From contig JADFOW010000005.1 of assembly GCA_022562615.1 (NCBI GenBank), positions 1 through 42,293 on the forward strand: a stretch of 42,293 nt of DNA, read 5' to 3'. The stretch's first letter is position 1. Each line of letters starts with the position of its first letter. Positions 5,111 through 16,063 of this stretch are shown here, in pieces. A program made the translations under genes and the position numbers. Below the pieces are notes generated by a model that was not told the DNA's origin, did no database searches, and worked only from the letters and a program-made list of their open reading frames with translations. The DNA is from Nitrososphaerota archaeon. GTDB lineage: Archaea; Thermoproteota; Nitrososphaeria; Nitrososphaerales; Nitrosopumilaceae.

Positions 5111-5293
5111 TTCAAATTAAATTGTATCCATGGTTTCCCAATTTTTTTAGTCATCTAACCATTCATTTTCAAGTGTTTTGGTACAAAATTGATTCTTCTG
5201 TATGTCTAAAACTAGGCAAATTTCTTTCAAAGATCCGCAAAAGCAACCATGCCCCTAAAACTGTGAATTTTCATGTGGATATTCCCCAAAATG

Positions 5294-5632
5294 TTATTTA
5301 GACTTGAGCTCAGTTTTTGATTCGGTATTTCTTTCTTTTTCAAGGGTGAGTTTGGGGGGATCAATTAATGATTTTTTGATTAATGCGGCACGTTTTTTTA
5401 GAATCTGATTAAATTCATTCATGTCCTCTAATCCTGGTGTTTGTTGTTGATTTTGATATGCTTGCAAGAATCCAGAGTAAACGCAGCCCACAATTATTCC
5501 AAACGCGGTATCTGAGACCGATTCAATTTCAGGAAAGTAATTTTCTGCGATTTGCTTGTATGATTGAGATTCACTAATGTAATAATCGATTAAACCTTCT
5601 ATGAATTCCCTGTTCTCTTTTGAGATTGTCAT
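5294..5632 (-). CDS. Hypothetical protein
   Basis: 112-aa ORF, helical and charged C-terminus. Confidence 0.55.
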   Translation of the reverse strand: MTISKENREFIEGLIDYYISESQSYKQIAENYFPEIESVSDTAFGIIVGCVYSGFLQAYQNQQQTPGLEDMNEFNQILKKRAALIKKSLIDPPKLTLEKERNTESKTELKSK

Positions 5633-10395: not shown

Positions 10396-10677
10396 TTATA
10401 AAGTATTAGAATATGTCAATTGTTCTTGCAAATAGTTGTAATGTACTCTTAAAAAAACCATGAATTTTTTATAATCTTTTTTATCCATTTCTGTACTGTT
10501 TACAAGAACCATCAAATATTTTAGATCGGATCTTAATTCACCTATGGATTTTTTCACTAATTCTTTTTTATGGGGTTGGTAAAATTTTAACATTACGTTT
10601 TCAATCTGTAAAATATCGTTTTCCAGATTTTCAATATTTTGAATTGGATTTTCTGTCGTATACTTTACCTTCCTCAA
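10396..10677 (-). CDS. Hypothetical helical protein
   Basis: 93-aa ORF, TTG start overlapping the stop of the upstream small ORF. Confidence 0.5.
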   Translation of the reverse strand: MRKVKYTTENPIQNIENLENDILQIENVMLKFYQPHKKELVKKSIGELRSDLKYLMVLVNSTEMDKKDYKKFMVFLRVHYNYLQEQLTYSNTL

Positions 10678-10814
10678 GCCTTTGGAAATTCACATACACA
10701 ATCTGGATTACCACAGTAAGGACATTTACAATGGCAATGAGGAAGAGTATTTTTGCATTCTGGACAATTAGGATACTTACTTTCTTTCATGTGTAACTCA
10801 AAATCTTGTGCCAT
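10674..10814 (-). CDS. 46-aa Cys/His-rich zinc-ribbon-like protein
   Basis: MAQDFELHMKESKYPNCPECKNTLPHCHCKCPYCGNPDCVCEFPKA*; overlaps the start of the 10396-10677 ORF by 4 bp; missed by the track. Confidence 0.65.
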   Translation of the reverse strand: MAQDFELHMKESKYPNCPECKNTLPHCHCKCPYCGNPDCVCEFPKA

Positions 10815-14778: not shown

Positions 14779-15663
14779 ATGAACTATGAAGACCTAATCA
14801 ATGAAAAGTCTTGGTCTGATTATCCGGTGGGCTTGGGTGGATGTAGAACTAGTGATACTTTTTTTGATTCATGTGATTACGATATTACTGTTTTTGATGA
14901 CAAATCTCAGAATGATGAGATTATTCAATTTCAAAATAAATTTGTAAAAATTTATCATGGTTCGTTGTCCGAATCTCAATCAAAGAAACTTATTCAATAT
15001 GATAACATGCGGATTATCCATGATGAGTCTTGGGATCTACGCATGCTTCTCTCAAAGGTTAAAGAAAAACGATTAACCCTCTACAAAGACCATGCAAAAA
15101 ACTCACTTATTGAATCGCTTTTTTGTTGTGAAAAAACTAAACAAGGAATTAAAGAATCAAGTGTTTTTGCACCATGTTGGCAAAAATGCGCATCATTTTT
15201 TTTGGCAGACGGTATTTTGGCACTAAACCAATGCAAGTCCAGCCCAACACACATGCTTGATTCATTGAGAAGATTGAAAAAAAATTCGGTCAACGAAAAA
15301 ATATCCGTTGTAAATGAAACAGTTGGTATTGAAAGGTCAATCCCTTCTTTGTTAGTGCGGATGCTAAAGTCAACAATCGGCTTCTCTGACCTCGTTGAGA
15401 AAAATAATCACTCTTTGCTGATCCAACAAAAACACGACTATTTTGTTAAGAATTCAATGCTATCTGACTGTTATTTTTATTTGGGATATATCAACAAGGA
15501 AAACTTTGTAAAACTCAAGGATTCCATTGAAAAACAACCTGATCTTATCCATATTTTGAAAATATCCTTTGACATAGATGCTGACCCCAATCTAATAGAA
15601 CGACAGGCAGATCTAATCCACAAGTCCTCAAATGAAATTTTAGATAACATTTCTAGGCGATAG
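14779..15663 (+). CDS. Conserved hypothetical protein
   Basis: 294-aa ORF; N-terminal GLGGCRTSDTFFDSCDYDITVFDD is weakly nucleotidyltransferase-like, not confident. Confidence 0.7.
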   Translation: MNYEDLINEKSWSDYPVGLGGCRTSDTFFDSCDYDITVFDDKSQNDEIIQFQNKFVKIYHGSLSESQSKKLIQYDNMRIIHDESWDLRMLLSKVKEKRLTLYKDHAKNSLIESLFCCEKTKQGIKESSVFAPCWQKCASFFLADGILALNQCKSSPTHMLDSLRRLKKNSVNEKISVVNETVGIERSIPSLLVRMLKSTIGFSDLVEKNNHSLLIQQKHDYFVKNSMLSDCYFYLGYINKENFVKLKDSIEKQPDLIHILKISFDIDADPNLIERQADLIHKSSNEILDNISRR

Positions 15664-15714: not shown

Positions 15715-15867
15715 ATGGTAGATCAAGCATGTGGATGCGAAGCCGATAGCGGCGATCCAGATTATTCGTGCGATTGTGCAATGCAAGGACATTGCATATG
15801 TAGCGCAGATTGCAAGTGTACTACAGACGTTTGTAAAGAAGCTGTTGGACCAATGTCTAAACAGTAA
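15715..15867 (+). CDS. 50-aa Cys-rich metallothionein-like protein
   Basis: MVDQACGCEADSGDPDYSCDCAMQGHCICSADCKCTTDVCKEAVGPMSKQ*; nine Cys mostly as CxC; the track's 15731-15925 ORF is a different frame over the same DNA. Confidence 0.7.
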   Translation: MVDQACGCEADSGDPDYSCDCAMQGHCICSADCKCTTDVCKEAVGPMSKQ

Positions 15868-15895
15868 CTTTCAATTTTATTTTTTATTATTAACC

Positions 15896-16063
15896 TTAAT
15901 CGTCCTCGCTCTCAAAACCCCATGACTTTACCAGTTCTCGTTGGAATTTGTCGGCTTGTTTTTCTCCAAGGGCAAAACCACAATTCTTGTGTGTTGGAAC
16001 GGTTTTCATTCCGTCTAGCTTAAACTCTACTTCAAACATATGGACTTTGGAGCATTCACACAT
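15896..16063 (-). CDS. 55-aa small protein with N-terminal CxC
   Basis: MCECSKVHMFEVEFKLDGMKTVPTHKNCGFALGEKQADKFQRELVKSWGFESEDD*; missed by the track. Confidence 0.55.
   Translation of the reverse strand: MCECSKVHMFEVEFKLDGMKTVPTHKNCGFALGEKQADKFQRELVKSWGFESEDD

Follow-up and report, generated by a model that had tools for sequence, protein, structure and literature searches.

The window, by which we mean the whole 42,293-nt stretch that was analysed, contains a standalone gene for a small protein with nine cysteines (Table 1). The protein has 50 amino acids, a pI of 4.1 and a net charge of −6; it lacks tryptophan and consists of 18% cysteine, with the layout C-G-C-x10-C-D-C-x5-C-x-C-x3-C-x-C-x4-C. 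This agrees with the translation quoted in the preliminary description, which had listed 50 residues, nine cysteines (four CxC pairs and a single cysteine) and one histidine. Upstream of the gene, the motif CTAAC-CTTTTAAAA recurred at a constant place in each of about 106 different upstream sequences, with the TATA box at −30 to −23, and positions −29 to −23 were 87-99% conserved. Given the usual archaeal distance between TATA box and start site, a TATA box at this position implies that the transcript would be leaderless or nearly so. Within this conserved promoter no site for a regulator was identified.

The neighbourhood was compared over 72 standalone loci, and no metal genes were found beside the nine-cysteine gene in any of them. 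The 294-aa protein upstream looks by eye like a nucleotidyltransferase and had no Pfam match. The 55-aa protein that converges on the gene is extremely conserved across the family of the window and belongs to no Pfam family; its set of cysteines and histidines could be a metal site. Next after it comes a secreted protein of about 490 amino acids in 70 of the 72 loci, and then others. One contig carried two further standalone copies, and between them lie genes for putative secreted or membrane proteins and a relative of the outer domain of a fused protein described below.

Table 1. Positions of the nine-cysteine gene, its neighbours and related features (window positions unless a contig or locus is named)
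Feature	Position	Strand	Remarks
Small cysteine-rich ORF, MAQDFELHMKESKYPNCPECKNTLPHCHCKCPYCGNPDCVCEFPKA	10674-10814	−	46 aa, 8 Cys, zinc-ribbon-like; Pfam matches sub-threshold only
Upstream 294-aa protein	14779..15663	+	syntenic in 68/72 loci, median gap 53 nt
BRE-like CTAAAC and TATA box TTATAAAA	15679..15692	+	−36 to −23 from ATG
Standalone nine-cysteine gene	15715..15867	+	ATG...TAA, 50 codons; translation MVDQACGCEADSGDPDYSCDCAMQGHCICSADCKCTTDVCKEAVGPMSKQ
Out-of-frame 64-aa ORF overlapping the nine-cysteine gene	15731..15925	+	spurious; frame interrupted in 92/95 relatives
T-rich stretch behind the stop codon	15868..15895	+	possible terminator, perhaps common to both converging genes; nearly every locus is T-rich 3' of the gene
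Converging 55-aa protein, MC(E/D)CxKxH...VVPTHKNCG...KSWG	15896..16063	−	syntenic in 54/72 standalone loci, median gap 39 nt
Fused form in the genome of the window	G000:C94:33973-34113		87% identical
Conserved stretch 3' of the fused gene	L062 about 5187-5500; L064/L065/L080/L089 about 5300-5500
Two further standalone copies	L150 (G347:C12:7500-16000)		about 4.5 kb apart
Shorter nine-Cys paralogues near CopA, DsbD/CcdA-like and thioredoxin-like genes of a copper-export locus	L201 1632-1748 and 5193-5366; L202 4622-4738

The 50-codon frame is a real gene. It had been predicted that annotation filtered by length would miss it, and this is supported: the overlapping 64-aa ORF lies in another frame, and a 60-aa filter would keep that ORF in place of the 50-aa one. 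Frame 0 was open in all 95 relatives, while the competing frame had stops in 92 of them. The median NG86 dN/dS was 0.10 over 3074 pairs. All nine cysteines were invariant in the 95 distinct standalone sequences, and each cysteine codon varied between TGT and TGC. Both checks that had been set beforehand, conservation of the frame and purifying selection on the cysteines, are thus passed, the latter with nine invariant residues despite codon drift. Among 48,234 ORFs of 35-70 aa from 200 first-order Markov windows, none had at least nine cysteines and at least four CxC.

Relatives were gathered without any requirement for cysteine, by protein and profile searches of whole genomes. The domain set for the codon analysis was defined by a nine-cysteine regular expression, which all 141 loci found by then passed, and the nine cysteines in the order (CxC)4-C were invariant in 118 of 118 distinct domain sequences. 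Further relatives were sought in genome contigs with the peptide pattern CDCxMQ[GS]xC, which gave 226 confirmed stretches. The best 80 of these were, by title, from Nitrosopumilus, Nitrosopelagicus, Nitrosotenuis, Nitrosarchaeum, Cenarchaeum, Thaumarchaeota or similar. One pattern stretch labelled Nitrososphaeraceae appears to be the record of G002, a genome of the window's own genus, and the label is probably wrong. Besides the cysteines, A5, G7, D20, M23 and Q24 are near-invariant, and CDCxMQG is conserved. Every member is acidic, with a mean net charge of −6.5 (range −2 to −9). The histidine noted in the preliminary description is present in the window protein but is not a conserved ligand: position 26 of the standalone protein is H in 74 sequences, A in 17 and T in 4.

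Within the ammonia-oxidising archaea, the gene belongs to the core set of a single family, by record titles the Nitrosopumilaceae. In a draw of 398 genomes from the phylum it was present in 63, all 63 from this family, and in none of the 335 sampled genomes outside it. An order-level sample had the gene in 81 of 82 family genomes, and the only family genome without it (G585) has a shorter paralogue. Elsewhere in the order there were four partial matches (E 0.04-0.1), which covered only 14-27 positions and were rejected. In another set 34 of 37 family genomes were positive; the misses were two genomes that are 90-91% complete and one that is 72% complete. No relatives were found in viral contigs.

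In many family genomes, including that of the window, the nine-cysteine domain also occurs at the C-terminus of a membrane protein of about 460 amino acids. This protein begins with a signal sequence; an outer domain, a transmembrane stretch, a Pro/Gln-rich linker and the cysteine tail come after it. Since Arg/Lys residues follow the transmembrane stretch, the tail is probably cytosolic by the positive-inside rule. The predicted structure of the fused protein was confident for much of residues 31-210. A Foldseek search against the PDB gave nothing at E<=0.001 (best 5.8e-3, TM 0.11), so that the outer domain, confidently predicted in part, is like no solved structure, and a sub-threshold match to the lectin family PF18483 was judged to be noise. 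The fused gene adjoins cofD/cofC-like genes, to which a functional link is not obvious. Even among diverged genomes the stretch 3' of the fused gene is conserved, in a frame that is not protein-like, and it is possibly a non-coding RNA.

Members of the family of the 460-aa protein (L002 and L147 of G000:C94; L151-L176) carry interchangeable tails: some have the nine-cysteine domain, others finish in RGSMPKGWKP or (L166) in a C-terminal extension unrelated to either. Outside a few residues, the standalone and tail types of the domain are only loosely alike (about 50% identity). The ancestral-looking tail is EEAACGCAAS..., and several genomes have instead the standalone type including its initiator methionine (TPTMVDQACGC...). 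In some genomes a copy of the standalone gene has taken the place of the tail and has brought its start codon along. In the isolates L19a and B12T1B11, out of 95 standalone genes compared, the one nearest to the tail was that of its own genome, at a nucleotide identity of 94.7% (a tie with one other gene) and 97.7%, respectively. This points to gene conversion. For six other genomes, the window's included, the tail was closer to standalone genes of relatives, and therefore the exchange would be older or between strains.

The preliminary description called the protein metallothionein-like. As the best reading of a thiolate protein with an invariant (CxC)4-C order this holds, but the protein belongs to no described metallothionein family. 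It has the general metallothionein features of small size, high cysteine content mostly as CxC, and conserved cysteines. No Pfam model matched the window protein above cut-off, and NCBIfam gave no families for three members. At the gathering cut-off of PF00131 there were no members: the window protein had no match, and three of 26 members matched at E<=1, with a best score of 15.6 bits against 23. The match to PF02067 was weak and sub-threshold. A profile search of solved structures gave none at E<=1. The best PDB match of a single member, the UBR2 zinc box (E=0.042), was not significant and was put down to cysteine composition, as was a match to Pfam GULLO2.

The order of the cysteines is that of the vertebrate metallothionein beta domain. 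Compared with what we take to be the vertebrate beta-domain sequence, the archaeal domain shares nine cysteines as (CxC)4-C (118/118), small size, an acidic or neutral character, the lack of tryptophan and an expected M3Cys9 cluster. However, none of the 118 domains fits the vertebrate spacing, which is x5, x3, x2, x2 as opposed to x10, x5, x3, x4 in the archaeal protein. The archaeal protein also has no alpha domain, and it has conserved non-cysteine residues and a membrane-fused form. Bacterial SmtA/BmtA (PF02069) are likewise small prokaryotic cysteine-rich proteins with a presumed buffering role, but SmtA uses cysteine and histidine, and the archaeal histidine is not conserved. PF02069 did not match the window protein or any of 200 phylum genomes, whereas a Synechococcus control did match. 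Fungal copper thionein of the Neurospora type (PDB 1m0j) has similar CGC...CxC...CxC cores, which wrap Cu(I) in the fungal protein, but it is a protein of 25-28 aa with seven cysteines and its match was at chance level (E=3.7).

Two further families share a feature with the archaeal protein. The CXC domain of tesmin/TSO1/LIN54/MSL2 (PF03638) also has nine cysteines, with three Zn expected; the archaeal domains are acidic, not basic, and 0/118 fit its published spacing, CX[C/H]X2-13CX4-7CXCX5-60CX2-4CX1-2CX2-15CXN (PMC3447885). Csp3 (DUF326, PF03860) is a cytosolic thiol-rich copper store, a role that we propose for the archaeal protein, but Csp proteins are four-helix bundles (PMC7558416), unlike the nine-cysteine protein. 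As judged from sequence, the nine-cysteine proteins are a new metallothionein-like family and not a member of any known metallothionein family tested, because they match no Pfam or NCBIfam model, vertebrate spacing, SmtA profile or CXC consensus. The AlphaFold model of the protein had no confident fold (pLDDT 58, pTM 0.28). A low pLDDT is expected for a metal-thiolate protein without its metal, so the prediction does not bear on the best explanation.

A shorter relative of 38 aa, MACGCSSNNEGCVDANCDCQKTGTCTCGSDCNCAANKK, has the identical core CDC-x5-CxC-x3-CxC. Profile comparison with the nine-cysteine family gave a probability of 94% and an E value of 1.7e-7 for one comparison, which suggests kinship, as seen over a short cysteine-rich sequence. 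Two genomes that share a genus (G020 and G235) have this paralogue close to a copper-translocating P-type ATPase of the CopA type, with 28-31 bp between the end of the paralogue and the ATPase. The ATPase matched TIGR01511 with 574-577 bits (cut-off 397) and has HMA domains and a CPC motif. The opposite flank holds a DsbD/CcdA-like membrane protein, with a thioredoxin-like protein beyond it. The paralogues in these copper-export loci include a second cysteine-rich ORF of 57 aa, MDSCGCDKRGCIDTSCDCLDSQVCMCGEHCNCNAKSK... In a third genome a single gene separates the paralogue from a CopC-CopD protein. The other copper ATPase loci that were scanned had no convincing short cysteine-rich gene nearby besides G020 (G235 was found otherwise). 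Since both CopA-linked genomes belong to one genus, the link to CopA is probably one evolutionary event. The copper link across the three genomes is guilt by association and probably stands for no more than two independent events.

Ammonia-oxidising archaea, which rank with the most abundant nitrifiers, require copper both to oxidise ammonia and to respire. The host had been assumed to be an ammonia oxidiser, and a match to archaeal AmoA in its genome (E=4.7e-116) bears this out. In this genome, a 95% complete assembly, neither an HMA domain (E 0.01, as judged by one family model) nor a copper ATPase (E 1e-20) was found. HMA domains were present in 15 of 61 family genomes, all inside ATPase-sized frames of 812-845 aa, and therefore no free CopZ-like chaperone was seen in these 61 genomes. 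Copper ATPases scored above cut-off in 13 of 61 family genomes, a sample partly different from the HMA sample, and the DUF326 motif of Csp was found in none of 61. Ammonia-oxidising archaea have been described as copper-centred (PMC7490402, PMC13003922), and CopC/CopD and multicopper oxidases are candidate parts of copper uptake (PMC12448741). On intracellular copper, PMC13003922 names only likely homeostasis mechanisms and putative Csp proteins. Our literature search did not find the term archaeal metallothionein, nor Nitrosopumilus, cysteine-rich and copper together, and it found nothing usable on expression of the nine-cysteine gene in Nitrosopumilus.

We favour, with moderate confidence, the reading that the nine-cysteine protein is a metallothionein-like thiolate buffer, likely for Cu(I) and possibly for Zn, that would exist in soluble and membrane-tethered forms. 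The nine thiolates, as four CxC pairs and a single cysteine, would wrap a small cluster of metal ions, which by analogy would be M3Cys9 with Zn or would hold several Cu(I). The small soluble form would buffer or detoxify metal in the cytosol, and the tail of the one-pass protein of about 460 amino acids would buffer metal at the inner face of the membrane. Cu(I) appears the likeliest ligand, and we prefer it over Zn for two reasons: the enzymes on which ammonia-oxidising archaea depend use copper, and the shorter paralogue adjoins a CopA pump. Two points weigh against the buffer reading: the standalone gene has no metal gene as its neighbour, and the link to CopA probably goes back to one event.

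The strongest competing reading is that of a structural zinc adaptor, in which the domain would fold around two or three Zn and dock on a partner, either as a soluble protein or as a cytosolic tail, and would not buffer metal. It is the main rival because several non-cysteine residues are nearly invariant. The near-invariance of A5, G7, D20, Q24 and M23 exceeds what is normal for metallothioneins and hints at a defined fold or partner, and the conservation of CDCxMQG points the same way. The repeated exchange between soluble gene and membrane tail would also suit an interchangeable docking module, as would the other tails found at the same place in relatives. However, identity between the two domain types falls to about 50% outside a few residues, the cysteines dominate the invariant columns, and the shorter paralogue, located at copper-export genes, retains only the cysteine core. 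We therefore consider the adaptor rather unlikely. A redox or sulfur-handling thiol protein, whether a thiol buffer, an Fe-S scaffold or a persulfide carrier, is less likely still. The DsbD/CcdA-like and thioredoxin-like genes beside the paralogue would fit such a role, but the same gene cluster contains a copper ATPase, and Fe-S family matches were absent in Pfam and NCBIfam. The invariant cysteines are moreover odd in number and stand in tight CxC pairs, as is usual for metal-thiolate clusters and not for dithiol enzymes.

A DNA-binding Zn3Cys9 domain of the CXC type acting in gene regulation is very improbable. It would share the nine cysteines, and one paralogue had a sub-threshold match to PF03638 (15.6 bits, cut-off 23.5), but the misfit to the published spacing and the strong acidity of every member, which leaves no basic DNA-binding surface, led us to reject it, and membrane-tethered copies also speak against it. 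That the frame is a chance ORF and no gene, as its shortness and its loss in length filters might suggest, is refuted by its conservation, codon pattern, promoter, synteny and distribution.

Returning to the thiolate buffer, the Nitrosopumilaceae, whose copper enzymes operate in cells that for the most part have no HMA chaperone or CopA exporter, may rely on a copper buffer of their own, soluble and membrane-tethered and kept alike by gene conversion, an idea that we put forward tentatively. If true, a thiolate buffer in two places would be a way of handling copper that has not been described for any cell. The family, with its soluble and membrane-bound members, lies outside the family databases and offers a concrete and easily expressed candidate, so the question is directly testable. 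Intracellular copper protection in ammonia-oxidising archaea is poorly known, and where the usual chaperone and pump are missing a thiolate buffer would fill a gap.
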